Virus record (IMG/VR): IMGVR_UViG_3300009136_000038
Span: 1 to 22,712 of that record
Source of the DNA: a virus
Length of the DNA: 22,712 nucleotides
Strand: one strand, 5' to 3'
The notes below the pieces were generated by a model. It saw only the letters and a program-made list of their open reading frames with translations, was not told the origin of the DNA and searched no databases. A program made the translations under genes and the position numbers. Positions 3,964 to 22,586 of the stretch are shown here, one piece after another (positions within the stretch are counted from its first letter, which is position 1; every line of letters starts with the position of its first letter).

Positions 3964-5394
3964 ATGACACAAGTGACCCAACCCAGAAAAGAACACATAG
4001 ACCAGCTAGAAGATGTCGAGCGCAACCGCGCAGCCGTAGCCGGTGAGCGTGAAGTTAAGCAAGGTACTATTACATTCTTGCCTCCACTCGCTTCAATGTG
4101 TTGTTCGACAGAGACGGATGCTAACGGCTTCCAGATGATACGTCAATCACATGCACTAACATCAGAAGGACGAGCAGCTTATACAAAGTATTTGGCTCTT
4201 GCTTCATTCTATGGTGCAACAGGTAGAACTGTTGATGGTTTGGTGGGTTTAATATTCTCTAAAGAGGCCGTTTGTGAAATACCGTCTAACGTTGAATATT
4301 TAAAAACCAACGCAGACAGTAAAGGCAGCACCCTAAGAGATTTATCTAAAAGGGCTACCACTGAAGCATTTATATCACCGCGTTCTGGCGTCTTGGTAGC
4401 AAGGCCATCAACGCCAGAGGGTGCGAGCGAATTATTAGTTGAGACGATGAATTTAAGACCAAAAATATTACACTATCGTTTTGAGTCGGTCATCAATTGG
4501 GATTATGAAGTAATAGACAATGTCGAAAAGCTTTCAATGGTCATACTCAAAGAGCAAACGACAACCCGTAAAGGTTTTGAAGTTACTGTGGAGAGTCAGT
4601 ATAGAGTCTTAGAATTAATCAACGGTGTATACCATCAGTCGTTGTACGGTGAGGGCGGATCATTAATAGATAAGGCTTTACCCGTTGTGATTAATGGCAA
4701 TACATCAAATGAAATACCTTTTTACTTTATCGAAGTAGGCGCGGAAGGTAAGGCCATTATTAACGATCTAGTTGATATGAACTTCCACCACTACCAGGTT
4801 AGCGCAGACTATAATAGTAAAAACCATTTTTCATCATTTATAATCTGGTATGAAACCGGTGCTGAATCAGGTCATAACATGCTAATGGGTAACGGCGTTA
4901 AATGGTCAAACAGAAGCACTGACGCGACATTTGGTATATTGCAGCCAGACGGCAATGCTGATGCTTTACGCATATCATTACAAGACGATGAACAGCGTAT
5001 GGCAGCATTAGGCGCAGAAGCGTTAAAGCCTCGTCAAAGTGGAGCAGAGAGCGCAGAAGCTAAGAGCCTTGATCAAGTTGCTCAGAACTCAACAACAGCC
5101 AATGTGGCAATTACAGTAAGTGAAGCATTAACCAAAGCTATCAACTTTGCCTCGCGCTGGATGGGTGGTTTAGAAGATGCCGTTTATCAATTGAACACAG
5201 ATTACAACCCTACTGGCATGAATGCACAAAGCTTAACCGCTATGGTAGCAGCGTTTCAAGGTGGCGCTATTTCATATGACACATTGTACGAGAATTTACA
5301 ACGTGGTGAGATTGCAAGCACTGAGCGCACAGCAGAAGAAGAGCGCGCATTAATCACACTCGCTGATACTGGTATGGGTGACATCATCGAATGA
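3964..5394 (+). CDS. Portal protein, DUF4055 type
   Basis: A 476-residue protein placed directly after terL. Its sequence matches the pattern of the DUF4055 phage portal family: an N-terminal SEGRAAYTKYLALASFYGATGRTVD-like region that leads into GLVGLIFSK (residues about 70-105), a TEAFISPRSGVLVARP segment and a helical C-terminal third. The portal dodecamer forms the DNA entry channel at one capsid vertex, docks the terminase during packaging and later the neck. The ATG follows GAAGG by six bases. The stop overlaps the methyltransferase start as ATGA. I am confident in 'portal' from position and family pattern; the subfamily name is from recall. Confidence 0.88.
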   Translation: MTQVTQPRKEHIDQLEDVERNRAAVAGEREVKQGTITFLPPLASMCCSTETDANGFQMIRQSHALTSEGRAAYTKYLALASFYGATGRTVDGLVGLIFSKEAVCEIPSNVEYLKTNADSKGSTLRDLSKRATTEAFISPRSGVLVARPSTPEGASELLVETMNLRPKILHYRFESVINWDYEVIDNVEKLSMVILKEQTTTRKGFEVTVESQYRVLELINGVYHQSLYGEGGSLIDKALPVVINGNTSNEIPFYFIEVGAEGKAIINDLVDMNFHHYQVSADYNSKNHFSSFIIWYETGAESGHNMLMGNGVKWSNRSTDATFGILQPDGNADALRISLQDDEQRMAALGAEALKPRQSGAESAEAKSLDQVAQNSTTANVAITVSEALTKAINFASRWMGGLEDAVYQLNTDYNPTGMNAQSLTAMVAAFQGGAISYDTLYENLQRGEIASTERTAEEERALITLADTGMGDIIE

Positions 5395-6092
5395 TTAATT
5401 TAATGCAAGGCGATTGCCTCGAAAGAATGAAGGAAATACCAGACGGATCAGTCGATATGATATTGACTGATCCACCATACGGCACAACAGCATGTAAGTG
5501 GGATTCAATCATACCGCTAGAGCCAATGTGGGAGCAGTTGAAGCGTATTATTAAGCCTAATGGAGCTATTGTAATGACAGCCGCACAACCTTTTACTAGT
5601 ATATTGGTGAGCAGCAATCTAAAAATGTTTAAATATTCTATGTACTGGAAAAAAGCACCAATTGGATTCCTTAACTCAAAGAAAAGACCTTTGGTTAACG
5701 TTGAGGATATAGCAGTTTTCTCTGGAAAGACTTACAACCCACAAGGTTTAATAGAGTGCAACAAAAAGATAAAGAGAGGGGAGCAAAGTATTAGTGTCGG
5801 GCATGATGGCGGTAGGTTGGATGCTACCCCGTACACTCAAAAATACACCAATTACCCGACTCAAGTGGTAGAATTTAAAGGTGAAAGAGGTTTGCACCCA
5901 ACCCAAAAACCAGTTGCATTAATGGAGTACCTAATCAAAACCTACACCAACGAAAGCGAAACAGTTTTAGATTTTACAATGGGTAGTGGCAGCACTGGAG
6001 TAGCAGCTAAAAACCTAAACCGTAAGTTTATAGGTATTGAAATGGATGAAAATTATTTTAATATTGCAAAGGATAGGATTAGCCAAGCATGA
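5391..6092 (+). CDS. Beta-class DNA methyltransferase (N6-adenine or N4-cytosine)
   Basis: This 233-residue enzyme should transfer a methyl group from S-adenosylmethionine to a base amino group in DNA. The catalytic motif IV, DPPYGT, is at residues 27-32. The SAM-binding motif I, DFTMGSGSTG, is at 194-203 and is followed by FIGIEMDENYF. Motif IV preceding motif I with a target-recognition region between them (about 90-170) is the beta-class order. HPTQKP, typical of the step just before motif I, is present around residue 168. It is complete and has no restriction partner nearby. Its start overlaps the portal stop and its stop overlaps the next gene's start, both ATGA, so it is expressed with the head genes. 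Self-protection or regulation of late DNA is plausible; recognition sequence unknown. Confidence 0.92.
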   Translation: MINLMQGDCLERMKEIPDGSVDMILTDPPYGTTACKWDSIIPLEPMWEQLKRIIKPNGAIVMTAAQPFTSILVSSNLKMFKYSMYWKKAPIGFLNSKKRPLVNVEDIAVFSGKTYNPQGLIECNKKIKRGEQSISVGHDGGRLDATPYTQKYTNYPTQVVEFKGERGLHPTQKPVALMEYLIKTYTNESETVLDFTMGSGSTGVAAKNLNRKFIGIEMDENYFNIAKDRISQA

Positions 6093-8863: not shown

Positions 8864-8892
8864 AAAAGGGCGCTAAATAAGCGCCCTTTTTT
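8864..8892. terminator. Strong Rho-independent terminator after the capsid gene, probably bidirectional
   Basis: A perfect 10-bp stem, AAAAGGGCGC (8864-8873) with GCGCCCTTTT (8881-8890), encloses a TAAATAA loop and runs into T's. The A-rich left arm gives a U-tract on the opposite strand as well, so it can also end transcripts of the minus-strand HNH gene whose stop codon is at 8891-8893. Confidence 0.93.
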
Positions 8893-9388
8893 ATATCGTG
8901 CATCCTTTGTGAAGGTTTCTTTTTTCCGTTATATACGCATCCCTAGCTTCAATCTCTGATGTAAAATAACCCAAAAAATAATATCTTTTATTGTGGTATA
9001 TTTTAGCCCTCCACCTTCCTTTGAATAATGAAACGCCTATATACTTACTTGTATTATTTCTTGAGTGCGGCTTAGTTTGGTTTTGCTGATTAAGTGAGCT
9101 AATACCACTTCTTAAATTTAATATTTTATTATTTGTTTTATCACCATCTATATGGTCTATTATTTTTGGAGGCTGTTCATTATAGTACAAAGCCCACACA
9201 ACCCTGTGATGTAATAAAGTCCTACCCAATACAGTGAGCCTTTTGTATCCATTTTTATGCATAGAACCTGGCTCTTGTTTTTTCTTACCTCTGCCGGTAA
9301 TATCCTTCCATTTCAATAGTCCATTGTTTTTGTTATACTCAATCAAAGTAACAAGTAAATCAATATCTAATGCTTTGCTTTTTGCCAT
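8891..9388 (-). CDS. HNH homing-type endonuclease with AP2-like DNA-binding domain
   Basis: A 165-residue protein on the strand opposite to the head genes. The N-terminal part has GYKRLTVLGRTLLHHRVVW, and the nuclease core is HHRVVWALYY ... IIDHIDGDKTNNKILNLR (residues about 60-95), the classic H-N-H metal-binding finger of phage free-standing homing endonucleases. Residues about 115-158 (YIGVSLFKGRWRAKI ... FLGYFTSEIEARDAY) form an AP2-like domain that binds DNA. The start is supported by AAGG eight bases upstream on the minus strand. These selfish genes cut an allele lacking them and spread by repair. It sits in the gap between capsid terminator and a small head gene, interrupting no reading frame that I can see. 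Confidence 0.92.
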   Translation of the reverse strand: MAKSKALDIDLLVTLIEYNKNNGLLKWKDITGRGKKKQEPGSMHKNGYKRLTVLGRTLLHHRVVWALYYNEQPPKIIDHIDGDKTNNKILNLRSGISSLNQQNQTKPHSRNNTSKYIGVSLFKGRWRAKIYHNKRYYFLGYFTSEIEARDAYITEKRNLHKGCTI

Positions 9389-9634: not shown

Positions 9635-10188
9635 TGCCCTATTTACCAATTGACCTTATGACCAGTGAGCGCCGAGCATACAGGCGCTTAAAAGTTGAGC
9701 AAGAAGATGCTAGCTATGTTATAGGCACTCAATTTAGAATTAGTGTTCCACTCACTGTCTCCAGTGCTGACCCTGTTACTTTAAGATTCACAAGTCCAAT
9801 TAATTTCGAACTAATAGCTCAAACACTATCGACTTATCAAAGCGGCATTAAGCTAGAAGTATATCGAGGCATTCAAGGCACTGAGACAGGAATATTTGAC
9901 GTTCAAATTCCAATATATAAAAACAACTTTCAATCAACGGTTATTGATTATACCGGACAGGTTGCTATTGAAACCGGAGGAGGGTTTACGCCTAATGTCG
10001 GCCAAACTTCAGTGGAAACACTAAACGTATTATCAGCATCATCCACAGCTCAGAAGTCTAGCATTGAATCAGGTGCGCAAGGTAAGCGAGGGTTAGCGGC
10101 AGGAGTTTATTATTTATACTTTTCAAAGCTAGGTGGCTCTGGTGATTCGCTTGGGGTGTACACTTTAATTTTTAACGAGAAACCATAA
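9634..10188 (+). CDS. Probable virion structural protein, function unknown
   Basis: A 184-residue protein linked by TAATG overlaps to both neighbours. After a short polar N-terminus (ERRAYRRLKVEQEDASYVIG) it is strongly beta-rich, with alternating hydrophobic strands (FRISVPLTVSS, VTLRFTSPINFELI, KLEVYRGIQG, VYYLYFSKLGG) and no signal peptide or membrane helix. Such sequences are typical of capsid decoration proteins or jelly-roll/Ig-type virion components. Gene order (after the capsid, before the connector) supports a head-associated role. I do not recognise the family. Confidence 0.7.
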   Translation: MPYLPIDLMTSERRAYRRLKVEQEDASYVIGTQFRISVPLTVSSADPVTLRFTSPINFELIAQTLSTYQSGIKLEVYRGIQGTETGIFDVQIPIYKNNFQSTVIDYTGQVAIETGGGFTPNVGQTSVETLNVLSASSTAQKSSIESGAQGKRGLAAGVYYLYFSKLGGSGDSLGVYTLIFNEKP

Positions 10189-10988
10189 TGTCACAAAATT
10201 TAGTAATACCTAACAAAGATAACAAAGTTGTTTTTGTATTTACCGGCATTGATTTAACTCAGTCAACTAATATCGTGGTTGATTTTGGTGCGGAGTCATA
10301 CAGTACTACACTAAACCCCACACTAGTCGTCGTATCAAGCGCAACAGAGTTAAGCTTAGACTTATCAAGCACCGCCGAAGTGGGCAAGGTGTTTGCAACG
10401 GTTACATACATTGACGGCGCGAGTGTTAACGGTACTGACATCACTAGTCAAGAATTGGGCAACTCCACGAAAATAGTTGTAGCAATCGGAACACAGTTAA
10501 TTATTGAAGACGGAACGATTGTGGCCAGCGCCAATAGTTTTGCGACAGACGCAGAGTTTAAGTTATACGCTAACATTAGAAACTTTGACGTACCAGCCAC
10601 ACAACCAGATAGAGAGGCTTTGCTAATCCTAGCTATGGATTATTTGCAAGGCAAAGAACTTGAGATGAAAGGTTCAAGGGTTAGTGCAACACAAGAGTTG
10701 ATGTATCCCAGAATCGGAGTGTGTACAAATAACTTCACGGTTGCATCTACTGACATTCCAAGCTCATTAAAGAAGGCTCAGATGGAATTAGCGGCACAGG
10801 CTAACGAATCATCACTGTTGGTTAATGGCACATCTCAAAACTTGGCATCATTCAGCGTAGACGGTGTTTATTCTGAATCTTATCATAGTGGAGGAAGTTG
10901 GGAGCAGGTCAGAACAGATAGAGCGGATGTATATCTTGACCCGCTATTAGTTAATAACGGATCAAGTAATTTAATGGTTAGGGTCTAG
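10188..10988 (+). CDS. Head-tail connector protein with N-terminal Ig-like and C-terminal DnaT-like/connector domain
   Basis: A 266-residue, apparently two-domain protein. Residues 1 to about 105 are beta-rich (KVVFVFTGIDL, VVDFGAESYSTTL, SLDLSSTAEVGKVFATVTYIDG) and look like an Ig-type accessory domain. Residues about 115-220 (FKLYANIRNF, DREALLILAMDYLQGKEL, KGSRVSATQELMYPR, PSSLKKAQMELAAQA) match the phage 'DnaT-like' head-completion/connector family, in which the order YxxxR..., AxxYI, WPR and P..vkxAxxelA is conserved. The last part (SYHSGGSWEQVRTDRADVYLDPLL) is the usual C-terminus of that family. The connector ring joins portal and tail. The join to an extra N-terminal beta domain is less common. 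The stop lies inside the convergent minus-strand gene by 11 nt. Confidence 0.75.
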   Translation: MSQNLVIPNKDNKVVFVFTGIDLTQSTNIVVDFGAESYSTTLNPTLVVVSSATELSLDLSSTAEVGKVFATVTYIDGASVNGTDITSQELGNSTKIVVAIGTQLIIEDGTIVASANSFATDAEFKLYANIRNFDVPATQPDREALLILAMDYLQGKELEMKGSRVSATQELMYPRIGVCTNNFTVASTDIPSSLKKAQMELAAQANESSLLVNGTSQNLASFSVDGVYSESYHSGGSWEQVRTDRADVYLDPLLVNNGSSNLMVRV

Positions 10989-11160
10989 TGAGTACAGCGC
11001 CAAAAAATACAAATAGGTAGATTAATATTGAAAGCGGGGCGAATACAAGCCATATCGAATCAGCCCCGCTAATTTCGCCATCTTCTTTCCATGTCTTAAA
11101 CGACACCAAGCCATGTATCAAATAAGCTAAAAAACAATATCCTATCAGAATATCAAGCAT
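10978..11160 (-). CDS. Small two-helix membrane protein in a minus-strand cassette
   Basis: A 60-residue protein with two hydrophobic segments, about residues 2-20 (LDILIGYCFLAYLIHGLV) and 36-57 (SIWLVFAPLSILIYLFVFF), joined by a charged loop (SFKTWKEDGEISGADS). The start is supported by AGGGGA eight bases upstream and a TAATG overlap with the preceding minus-strand gene. Its 3' end overlaps the 3' end of the convergent connector gene by 11 nt and no terminator lies between. It could be a membrane-acting phage protein such as a superinfection-exclusion or holin-like protein. There is no motif to decide; it lacks an adjacent endolysin, which argues against a holin. Confidence 0.7.
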   Translation of the reverse strand: MLDILIGYCFLAYLIHGLVSFKTWKEDGEISGADSIWLVFAPLSILIYLFVFFGAVLTRP

Positions 11161-11720
11161 TATAATTTCCCCTGTAGTTTTGCTATCTGCTCTTGTAGTG
11201 CTTTGGCTTGCTCTTGTAATATCTCCATTTCTTTCTGTGCTTCTGTCTGCTCTGTTCGTTCCCAGATAATCTTTAAGCGCTGCCCTTCCAAATAATCAGA
11301 TAGGCAGCCACCCTTAATGCGCTCATATACCGCTACAATATCAAGCGCCGCGAAACCTCTGCTTTTTTTCAGTATGCCGTCGTCGTAGTTAGAAAGATCA
11401 CTCCAAGAGTTGCCACCGGAAATTACATCATCTAAAACAATCTTAAACTCTCCGCCTCTTTGTTTAACAAACATACCTGTTTTTAAATCTGATTTAGTAA
11501 ATTGCATTGCCTTTCCTTTTTTAACTAATGTTAAGTCGCATGCTTTGTAATTGTTTGATTTTCCGCTTTCCCACTTCACGACGTGCGTGTGCAACATGCC
11601 TCCTAGAGCGTCAGTACAAACACCATCACATCGCGGGTCATACTCATTCTCCAGTGTGCGGTTGTAATACTCGCTAGTCGCGGCAATCCTAACAGTGTCA
11701 CCTACCTCTATTTCAAGCAT
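11160..11720 (-). CDS. Two-module cytoplasmic protein with C-terminal coiled coil, minus-strand cassette
   Basis: A 186-residue soluble protein. The start at 11720 is chosen because GGAGGG lies 6 bases upstream and the ATG overlaps the previous stop (TAATG); a more upstream ATG would place the SD inside the gene. Module 1 (about residues 1-67; EIEVGDTVRIA, YDPRCDGVCTDALGG) is a small beta domain containing two Cys. Module 2 (from MQFTKSDLKTGMFVKQRGGEFKI to ALDIVAVYER) resembles a widespread uncharacterised phage domain with 'KxDLKTGMxVxxRxGxxYxV ... DIVxVY'. The last ~25 residues are a leucine/glutamine heptad coiled coil. It is neither nuclease- nor polymerase-like; function unknown. It is flanked by two membrane proteins and presumably works with them. 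Confidence 0.75.
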   Translation of the reverse strand: MLEIEVGDTVRIAATSEYYNRTLENEYDPRCDGVCTDALGGMLHTHVVKWESGKSNNYKACDLTLVKKGKAMQFTKSDLKTGMFVKQRGGEFKIVLDDVISGGNSWSDLSNYDDGILKKSRGFAALDIVAVYERIKGGCLSDYLEGQRLKIIWERTEQTEAQKEMEILQEQAKALQEQIAKLQGKL

Positions 11721-11971
11721 TATTTTGCCCTCCAAAAGCTTTCTTGAGACTTAGTATTAGTTGGGCTAGGCTGGCAATCATTACCCTTCAGCGCTTCAGG
11801 CTCTTTGTTAGAGTTCGCATACTTGTTAGCCTGTATTAACGCATCTTTAATATCAGACAAGAGCTTTACCCGCTTATTGATTTTGAAATACCAGCAAAAC
11901 ACCTCACGCAACAATAAGAATGTGGCCACTATGAATATTGCAAACACTATTAATCTCTCTACACTTTCCAT
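11720..11971 (-). CDS. Small single-span membrane protein, first gene of the minus-strand cassette
   Basis: An 83-residue protein with one N-terminal transmembrane helix (about residues 6-27, RLIVFAIFIVATFLLLREVF), then a basic and amphipathic cytoplasm-facing segment (KINKRVKLLSDIKDALIQANKYA) and a hydrophilic Ser/Asn/Pro-rich tail. The ATG follows AAAGAG by eight bases on the minus strand. There is no cleavage site or lipobox, so it should remain membrane-anchored. It leads a three-gene run oriented against the surrounding virion operon and is preceded by its own promoter-like sequence. Function unknown. Confidence 0.72.
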   Translation of the reverse strand: MESVERLIVFAIFIVATFLLLREVFCWYFKINKRVKLLSDIKDALIQANKYANSNKEPEALKGNDCQPSPTNTKSQESFWRAK

Positions 11972-12003
11972 TTTATTTACTCTTTGGTTGATTGATTAAA
12001 TTA

Positions 12004-12012
12004 AATATAGCA
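12004..12012 (-). promoter_or_regulatory. Extended -10 promoter for the minus-strand cassette
   Basis: On the minus strand the sequence TGCTATATT is an extended -10 element (TGn plus TATATT) 33 bases upstream of the first cassette ATG. There is no good -35 box; the corresponding position is occupied by the palindrome at 12028-12040. Confidence 0.45.
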
Positions 12013-12027
12013 CATATAAATAATCAT

Positions 12028-12040
12028 CTGGTATGACCAG
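12028..12040. promoter_or_regulatory. Operator-like palindrome between divergent promoter-like sites
   Basis: CTGGTATGACCAG is an inverted repeat of CTGGT/ACCAG about a 3-bp centre, flanked on both sides by TAATCA (12021-12026 and 12042-12047). It overlaps the -35 position of the minus-strand promoter, a typical repressor position. The binding protein is unknown and is not encoded in the window. Confidence 0.4.
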
Positions 12041-12063
12041 TTAATCAGGTATTTCAAATTTAT

Positions 12064-12092
12064 TTAAGAATTAAAGCAATAAGTGATACAAT
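12064..12092 (+). promoter_or_regulatory. Possible plus-strand promoter restarting the neck/tail operon
   Basis: TTAAGA (12064-12069), a 17-bp spacer and TACAAT (12087-12092) preceded by TGA give a plausible extended -10 promoter 28 bases before the next gene. It would restart plus-strand transcription after the minus-strand cassette. The -35 match is weak. Confidence 0.4.
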
Positions 12093-12119
12093 CGCACAAT
12101 ATAAACTAGGGGTTTAATG

Positions 12120-12485
12120 ATGAGCGCGTCAAGCATACAAGCAAAGGTTAAGAAGGGTTTAGCTAAGGCTATAGCAGCAACGGGATCACCTACTAGCGAG
12201 CCAGTGTATTTAGTTGTCAAAACTCAGGCAGGCACACCGCTAGCGCCATCGGTCACAGAATCAACAACCTTATTAGTCAATGCTATTTTCAAATCTTATG
12301 ATAAATTCTTGACTGACATAAATATACAAGCGGGTGATAGACAACTCGTAAGCAACTCAGACGTTACAGTGTCACAGAATGACATAATCAGACAGGGTTC
12401 AACTGATTACCTTGTAGTGGCTGTTGACGCTCGCATACCAGCATCAGAAGCGTTGGTTTATATCTCACAATGTAGGCAGCAATAA
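12120..12485 (+). CDS. Head-tail joining (neck) protein, probable head closure/stopper
   Basis: A 121-residue protein, first plus-strand gene after the minus-strand cassette. Two adjacent ATGs exist (12117 and 12120); AGGGG ends four bases from the first and seven from the second, favouring 12120. The N-terminus is helical (SSIQAKVKKGLAKAIAATGSP), followed by a beta barrel-like region: VYLVVKTQ, a variable loop, then ADRQLV-like 'IQAGDRQLVSNSDV' and 'GSTDYLVVAVDARIPASEALVYISQCR'. A 'I.aGDrxl ... v..gdxi...g..y.Vv.v....pag..v.Y..q.R' layout is characteristic of phage head-closure/neck proteins. Order before the gp10-like gene fits. Confidence 0.75.
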   Translation: MSASSIQAKVKKGLAKAIAATGSPTSEPVYLVVKTQAGTPLAPSVTESTTLLVNAIFKSYDKFLTDINIQAGDRQLVSNSDVTVSQNDIIRQGSTDYLVVAVDARIPASEALVYISQCRQQ

Positions 12486-13029: not shown

Positions 13030-13055
13030 CGGAATTAACGCTATCGGTGGTGTTT

Positions 13056-13517
13056 ATGCTTAGTATGGAATTAGTAAGAAATACATTTGAATATAATAAC
13101 GGTGATTTATTAAGGTTGACCACCAGAAAAGCGTCGGGGTCAGTGAATAGTAGGGGTTATATTAACGTATATTTAGACGGTAGATTGTACTTGGCTCACA
13201 GGCTCGTTTTTATGTACCACTATGGATACCTTCCTGAATTTATAGATCATATTGATGGAAACCGCCAGAATAACAAAATAGAGAATCTTAGAGGCACCAC
13301 AAAATCTTGCAATTCTCATAATATGGCAATTACAAAAAGAAATACCTCCGGCGTAAAAGGTATTCATTGGTGCAAGCAAAAAAATAAATGGTGCGCTAGA
13401 GTAAGCGCTAAAGGTCAAGTTTCGTGCAGAAGGTACTTTAACTGTATAATTAAAGCAGAAAAATTTATAATAGAAAGAAGGCTAATAATGCACGGCGAAT
13501 TCGCTAGGGATGAATAA
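13056..13517 (+). CDS. Second HNH homing-type endonuclease with AP2-like domain
   Basis: A 153-residue protein using the ATG at 13056, with GGTGG five bases upstream; GTG codons at 13047 and 13050 and an ATG at 13065 are alternatives. The nuclease core is AHRLVFMYHYG ... FIDHIDGNRQNNKIENLR (about residues 46-78), followed by NTSGVKGIHWCKQKNKWCARVS and a C-terminal helical stretch, the AP2-like DNA-binding part. It shares the family of the HNH at 8891-9388 but is clearly diverged and lies on the opposite strand. It sits between two conserved tail genes (gp10-like and tail terminator) without breaking either, as expected for a free-standing homing endonuclease. Confidence 0.9.
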   Translation: MLSMELVRNTFEYNNGDLLRLTTRKASGSVNSRGYINVYLDGRLYLAHRLVFMYHYGYLPEFIDHIDGNRQNNKIENLRGTTKSCNSHNMAITKRNTSGVKGIHWCKQKNKWCARVSAKGQVSCRRYFNCIIKAEKFIIERRLIMHGEFARDE

Positions 13518-22148: not shown

Positions 22149-22586
22149 ATGAAACTACCACATTACATAAAAATAACTAATGATACAGAGTACGGTGATT
22201 CTAAGTTTTGCGGCATTCGGTTAAACCCTGAGTACAAAAACGATAAAGGTTTGATCGCGCATGAGTACACCCATGTTAAGCAATGGTATGCCGGATTAGC
22301 TGCTGGTTTAGTGCTGGCTTTGTTTGTCTGCTTGGTATTTGGTCGAGCTGATTATACTTTCTATGCGTTAATGCTAGCGCCGTTTTGGAAAGAAATGGCA
22401 TATACATTTATTAAGCCATGCCGCTTCTTTCTTGAGGTTCAAGCATTTGCGGCACAGATAAGCATTGAGCCAAAGGAGCATCAAGGCGCGTACGTAATAG
22501 CGCACGCAAAAAGTTTAGCTGATAATTACAATCTATCTATTACAAAAGAAGAAGCGGAGCTGAAGTTAAAATCAAGGTTGAATTAA
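22149..22586 (+). CDS. Membrane-associated HExxH protein, putative small metallopeptidase
   Basis: A 145-residue protein 10 nt after the tailspike, with AAGGG as ribosome site. Its motif HEYTH at residues 38-42 (within LIAHEYTHVKQW) is the zinc-binding HExxH of gluzincin-type peptidases. A hydrophobic hairpin follows (about residues 47-80, AGLAAGLVLALFVCLVF and DYTFYALMLAPFW). Glu96 in FFLEVQAFAAQI is a good candidate for the third zinc ligand. Size and the inserted membrane segment are unlike those of the large M48 proteases; I recall similar small HExxH membrane proteins in other phages and bacteria, without known function. Substrate unknown; a role in envelope processing, lysis or exclusion is speculative. 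Confidence 0.72.
   Translation: MKLPHYIKITNDTEYGDSKFCGIRLNPEYKNDKGLIAHEYTHVKQWYAGLAAGLVLALFVCLVFGRADYTFYALMLAPFWKEMAYTFIKPCRFFLEVQAFAAQISIEPKEHQGAYVIAHAKSLADNYNLSITKEEAELKLKSRLN

Follow-up and report, generated by a model that had tools for sequence, protein, structure and literature searches.

The 22,712-nt window studied here, one whole 22.7-kb IMG/VR virus record (IMGVR_UViG_3300009136_000038) that probably represents part of the genome of a marine siphophage, carries three minus-strand genes, P1, P2 and P3, within its plus-strand virion genes. Comparison with related loci gives good support to their nature as an accessory cassette of the moron type, inserted antisense between the genes for a head-tail adaptor (Ad1) and a head-closure protein (Hc1). 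Taken as a whole, the best explanation is an accessory cassette in antisense orientation, with a P1/P3 pair that alters the inner membrane of the host and does so, most plausibly, for superinfection exclusion; we put its probability at roughly 0.45.

The antisense cassette and its site

The large terminase of the window shares 65% identity with terL of Pseudoalteromonas phage H105/1, and its major capsid protein (MCP) about 70–73% with the capsids of Hafnia TS33, Enterobacter phiEap-2 and the Guernseyvirinae. The three minus-strand ORFs reported by an earlier, sequence-only reading were all found in their place (10978–11971). On the left lies Ad1 (10188–10988, plus strand; phrog_477, E 8e-38), convergent with P3, whose final 11 bp lie within the end of Ad1; on the right, divergent from P1, lies Hc1 (12117–12485, plus strand; phrog_161, E 1e-9). 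Hc1 overlaps or directly abuts Ad1 in relatives without the cassette, and the ORFs of the cassette space include no plausible competing plus-strand gene. The earlier reading rightly set the group against plus-strand virion genes but missed a further minus-strand gene, an HNH endonuclease at 8891–9388. This gene, which adjoins MCP, and a plus-strand one at 13047–13517 are both of the phrog_99 type and sit between virion genes. Several further features of the window were noted. Upstream of the terminase genes, a 501-aa plus-strand ORF (195–1700) contains repeated 'TLGTIxYxSNxTxVxxxGxVDVxA' units; a DNA methyltransferase gene (5391–6092, plus strand) has portal on one side and MuF on the other; and a 145-aa plus-strand ORF (22149–22586), possibly for a membrane metallopeptidase, combines hydrophobic stretches with a HEYTH (HExxH-like) motif. 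Ad1 has an N-terminal extension of ~103 aa that is absent or replaced in several relatives (L024, L026, L027, L033).

P1 (11720–11971, minus strand) encodes 83 aa, with one N-terminal TM helix followed by REVFCWYFKINKR and a basic stretch; by the positive-inside rule, the basic residues after the helix suggest that this tail is cytoplasmic. P2 (11160–11720, minus strand) is soluble and has 186 aa counted from its ATG, in a frame that opens at a TTG (11735), while P3 (10978–11160, minus strand) has 60 aa, two TM helices and a FAPLSILIY core. The set of two small membrane proteins and one soluble protein with a coiled coil was therefore seen as described. Tight coupling of the genes was borne out in part: both internal junctions read TAATG, and GGAGGG and GGGG stand before P2 and P3, respectively, but the SD of P1 (AAAGAG) is weak. 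As dN is low relative to dS among relatives (0.14 vs. 0.58 for P1 of the window and L002; 0.05 vs. 0.80 for P3 of L004 and L006), P1 and P3 are, by their substitution pattern, real genes under purifying selection as proteins.

The claim that none of the three is recognisable as known stands for P1 and P3, for which library scans (PHROG, Pfam, NCBIfam, PADLOC) gave no named family; weak Pfam matches to LHC, Fer4_5 and DUF5320 fell below the cut-off and were discarded. It fails for P2, a common two-domain phage accessory protein composed of a small N-terminal domain (phrog_11307-like) and a C-terminal 'FTKSDLKxGMxV' domain, with a coiled-coil helix at the C-terminus. The family of the C-terminal domain ('FTKSDLKxGM' accessory) was found at 32 viral loci, and P2 belongs to it by homology and by the two-domain layout, which is similar in L160, L166 and L179. 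Used as a single query against the viral contigs, P2 found no relative; its relatives there were recovered only with an alignment including isolate homologues. In the structure model of P2 the C-terminal domain alone was confident (pLDDT above 90) and the N-terminal part low, and comparison of the model with the PDB gave no match with E below 0.8.

Relatives of the Ad1|Hc1 site were found with Ad1 and the capsid gene as bait. About 18 of them are free of a cassette, the two genes being joined directly or nearly so, and seven records hold minus-strand cassettes (the window, L002, L004, L005, L006, L007 and L011). The genes are missing from the same site in close relatives, which is the mark of a moron or accessory cassette. 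Cassettes with P1 or an HTH gene lie antisense at no fewer than four places in the head operon, namely terL|portal, MuF|scaffold, MCP|next structural gene and Ad1|Hc1. Among 49 P1 loci examined, 42 have a large ORF downstream, the nearest of which is opposite in 34; 35 of 42 HTH loci, a set overlapping the P1 loci, have one or more adjacent large ORFs on the other strand. With several sites, a divergent promoter region nearly always, often a repressor-like gene and an empty site in many relatives, the comparison lends good support to the proposal of a moron-like antisense cassette with predicted expression of its own. Whether a lysogen would express it is doubtful, and a lysogenic role should not be assumed, because an integrase was found in one of 21 records searched (18 with a P1 match), all of which may be incomplete.

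Putative promoters, candidate operator and regulator genes

The minus-strand extended −10 that had been placed upstream of the cassette is present as a sequence match (TGCTATATT, 12004–12012); the promoter regions of the window and L002 are 98% identical, so L002 gives no independent conservation of it. Present too is the 13-bp palindrome over the −35 position (CTGGTCATACCAG, 12028–12040, minus strand), a candidate operator, but by itself it is at chance level, as the same 161 bp contain two others equally good. Its position is comparable to that of the HTH-subtype-specific repeats of other cassettes. A generic scan for terminator-like sites gave 1 vs. 1.2 expected.

For the possible plus-strand promoter before Hc1 (TGATACAAT, 12084–12092), agreement with the consensus is not above chance in the window, but related cassettes conserve the element. 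Matches to a plus-strand extended −10 (TGnTAnnAT) were found upstream of 29 of 31 cassettes vs. 3.0 expected from dinucleotide shuffles, these loci being mutually related and not 29 independent events; a perfect TGnTATAAT occurs in 15 (0.4 expected). The distance from this −10 to the first start codon of the cassette is mostly 85–93 nt, with a mode of 87; it is 112 nt in the window, where TGATACAAT lies 25 bp before the Hc1 start. The near-fixed distance at which the plus-strand −10 is conserved suggests a single unit made up of the cassette and a promoter serving the virion genes downstream, and this promoter could restart those genes, beginning with Hc1.

Many other cassettes carry a tiny HTH or Phd-like gene first or near the front. 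The HTH protein has 54 aa and, in an AlphaFold model with a pLDDT of 80, four helices; its nearest solved folds are Xre- or lambda-repressor-like (including Aca1, TMq 0.54–0.61), with Foldseek E values all above 0.4. The TTGAACTACG-type promoter sequence accompanies the TWW subtype in 11/11 cases and other subtypes in 0/40. Two copies of TGCAAA are present in the promoter for 10/16 of the RWYR subtype, two copies of TGnCAA for 10/19 of the R[TS]YR subtype, and a GGCAAATTGCC-like palindrome, recognised by eye and clearest in L025, for the VWR subtype. This covariation, which is weakened by the subtypes being also kin groups and by the motifs having been picked after viewing the sequences, fits autorepression of the HTH genes.

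In L004–L006 the first cassette gene is Phd/YefM-like (PF02604, E 3e-9). These genes (L004:3689-3853, L005:5169-5333, L006:7002-7166) are solitary, with no toxin gene recognised nearby; L006 has one extra small sigma-r4-like gene. A type II toxin-antitoxin system was rejected, as Phd is followed in L004–L006 by P1/P3 with no space for another toxin and the window is without Phd. No regulator gene was found in the cassettes of the window and L002. Because the HTH gene is absent, the regulation of the window cassette is unreadable from that cassette itself.

The P1/P3 pair, its swapped membrane segments and the P2 cargo

P1 belongs to an unnamed family with one TM helix and then a nearly invariant R-E-x-x-C-W-Y-x-K-x-N (REVxCWYFKIN), found at 57 viral loci (48 distinct sequences) and 33 loci in bacterial genomes. 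Two of the latter, from Colwellia and Robiginitomaculum MAGs, lie on phage contigs, with portal and terL on either side of an antisense P1. Other P1-like bacterial proteins occur outside a phage context, and some have zinc ribbons: in L122, L128 and L140, for which no family name was found, the P1 helix and a CWYFKIN hinge are followed by zinc ribbons, and we read helix plus hinge there as a membrane-anchor module. All but one of the 18 records with a match contain just one copy of P1. The sole exception among those searched, L112 (record G020, 47.8 kb), has two P1 and two HTH genes, which may reflect a pair of cassettes, or else an assembly or end effect.

P3 proteins share two TM helices and an AP-L-S core. 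The order P1-then-P3 was observed in 13 distinct cassettes (the window, L002, L004, L005, L006, L011, L013, L023, L041, L060, L078, L095 and L188; one gene intervenes in L078), the P3 alignment being too divergent for a collection-wide scan. Joint travel of the three genes, which the earlier reading proposed to check, holds for P1 with P3 but not for P2, which was sought in the other P1 cassettes examined, the nearest relative L002 included, and found in none. In the window P2 is bounded by a direct repeat, TAATGCTTGA, with one copy at the P2 start (11713–11722, minus strand) and the other at the P3 start (11153–11162, minus strand). L002, whose promoter region and Ad1 are 98% and 93% identical to those of the window, is without P2 and joined exactly across TAATGCTTGA. 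Given this junction and the absence of P2 from the other cassettes, P2 is, on the sequence evidence, dispensable and exchangeable cargo.

Pairwise comparison of close relatives revealed a patchy divergence within P1 and P3. Between the window and L002, nucleotide identity is 0.98 in the promoter, 0.90 in the P1 tail, 0.99 in P3 and 0.93 in Ad1, vs. 0.48 in the P1 TM segment. L005 compared with L004/L006 is similar in the promoter (0.94–0.95), Phd (0.90–0.95), P1 tail (0.87–0.89) and Ad1 (0.91–0.94) and divergent in the P1 TM segment (0.63) and P3 (0.54–0.56). At terL|portal, L067 and L075 share 0.95 of the P1 tail and 0.98 of the downstream 400 bp, with 0.65 in the TM segment, and a similar pattern of TM divergence was seen between L041 and L095 at MuF|scaffold. 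Recombination appears to replace the membrane helices beside a conserved hinge. A few pairs show the reverse, with different P1 tails on similar TM segments; hence, as an alternative to specificity-driven swapping, the conserved hinge may be a mere recombination joint.

Proposed working of the cassette and rival explanations

We propose a moron-like, self-contained accessory unit at Ad1|Hc1 with three components: a divergent promoter region, a conserved membrane pair (P1 and P3) and exchangeable soluble cargo, here P2. Its minus-strand promoter would fire alone, either ahead of the late programme or apart from it. In related cassettes a tiny repressor encoded by the cassette itself probably keeps expression down; in the window the repressor gene is absent, with a candidate operator left. 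Late plus-strand transcription through the region would then work against the antisense genes. P1 is predicted to place one helix in the inner membrane and to have both its REVxCWYFKIN hinge and its tail, where some bacterial relatives have zinc ribbons, on the cytoplasmic side; P3 would contribute two helices. The pair would alter the host inner membrane such that a competing phage fails to complete DNA entry. We would place the specificity of exclusion in the membrane helices, since these are what recombination swaps, and the target itself may vary.

Superinfection exclusion as the function is a tentative assignment, for which we would not quite give even odds. It is favoured because SieA of P22 and gp15 of HK97 are inner-membrane exclusion proteins that block DNA entry (PMC10883804), and because the related Guernseyvirinae keep, on the minus strand of the virion operon, a gene annotated for immunity. 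SieA has diverged sequence types (PMC10883804) and in this resembles the pair; unlike P1 and P3 it has 162–164 aa and three TM helices, and no relation was recognised in library searches. The gp15 moron, too, is a small accessory gene amid virion genes, with its own promoter, as is predicted for the cassette, and a product predicted to be in the inner membrane (PMC10883804). In contrast, the window cassette is antisense with two or three coupled genes, its relatives often have an HTH/Phd-like gene and a paired plus-strand promoter, and library searches recognised no homology between gp15 and the cassette proteins. Guernseyvirinae, related phages, have a minus-strand short membrane protein of 'immunity to superinfection' (Imm) type in the virion operon, e.g. 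ORF21 of Escherichia phage K1G, but it is sited in tail genes and is a different protein from P3. Assignment of P3 to the T4 Imm/superinfection immunity family was rejected: hhalign against K1G Imm gave a probability of 22% over 17 columns, and Pfam matches of P3 up to E 10 included no superinfection-immunity family. The isolated relative H105/1 also has antisense cassettes among its head genes (gp21-22 and gp31-34; gp31 and gp33 are small and hydrophobic), but no P1 or P3 family member was detected in it. A tblastn search of phage isolates with P1, P3, a second P1 and HTH gave nothing significant, and that collection has no isolate known to carry P1 with P3.

Counting against exclusion, library searches detected no homology of P1/P3 to any known exclusion protein. 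P1-like proteins are encoded by bacteria as well, in some cases with zinc ribbons and away from phage genes, so the P1 module may serve generally as an anchor to the membrane. The cargo of many HTH cassettes is soluble only, and the class taken together is therefore no exclusion system.

One rival is host takeover, in which P1/P3 bind an inner-membrane protein of the host (transport, division, envelope stress) and aid phage production with no anti-phage role. Consistent with this, P1 also occurs in bacterial proteins and in longer runs of small early-type genes that share one strand (L094, L104, L111, L112). Against it, swapping of TM alleles is expected of a contest over specificity more than of a constant host target, although a host target that varied would have the same effect. 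We regard this explanation as unlikely.

Another main rival, which we also hold to be improbable, is a counter-defence island of the acr-aca type, with the HTH protein as an Aca-like autorepressor, variable cargo inhibiting host defences and P1/P3 countering a membrane-acting defence. The cassettes resemble Acr loci in their short variable cargo, small HTH regulator with probable autorepression, putative own promoter and head-gene location; moreover, the HTH model resembles Xre-type regulators including Aca1, and its subtype tracks the promoter repeats. However, the Foldseek E values all exceed 0.4, the fold is generic, the scanned proteins matched no anti-defence family and no known Acr or Aca homologue in the general libraries PHROG, Pfam, NCBIfam and PADLOC, and most of the window cargo consists of membrane protein. 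In known loci aca usually stands behind acr on the virion strand, whereas the cassettes are antisense and their HTH gene is often near the promoter.

That the cassette is a selfish or regulatory element, persisting via homing or recombination and acting mainly by antisense interference with the late operon, is highly improbable. HNH endonuclease genes do lie in the same region (8891–9388 and 13047–13517), and several cassettes end inside or beside the stop codon of the upstream gene, but purifying selection acts on P1 and P3 at the protein level and no common ends were noticed beyond the promoter region. Least likely of all is a lysis accessory pair (spanin-, holin- or antiholin-like), to which two small membrane proteins and the K1G spanin genes between Hoc-like and scaffold genes, near the cassette site of L008/L041, could point, but the charge pattern of P1 predicts a cytoplasmic tail, opposite to an inner-membrane spanin, antisense orientation with a separate promoter is ill-suited to late lysis genes, and an Rz/Rz1 pair was rejected on the same tail prediction and on the lack of a lipobox in P1 and P3, both judged by eye from the sequences.

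The antisense accessory cassette with a membrane-modifying P1/P3 pair belongs to a known kind, morons being own-promoter accessory genes in the virion operon; new are the antisense placement with a restart promoter, the exchangeable regulators with matching repeats and the modular P1/P3. A narrow literature search, mostly of titles and abstracts, gave no description of such a cassette. It is possible, but doubtful, that these are an undescribed class of antisense, self-repressed cassettes moving among head-operon sites with a restart promoter, in which P1/P3 would be a new exclusion system with TM-allele specificity at the hinge. The HTH subtypes with their promoter repeats, the divergent promoter and the P1 motif provide a sequence handle for accessory genes in uncultured marine phages. 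A two-gene membrane module is named, and its recombined helices predict a test of specificity. Finally, the arrangement suggests how phages may fit antisense genes into a late operon without silencing the downstream virion genes.
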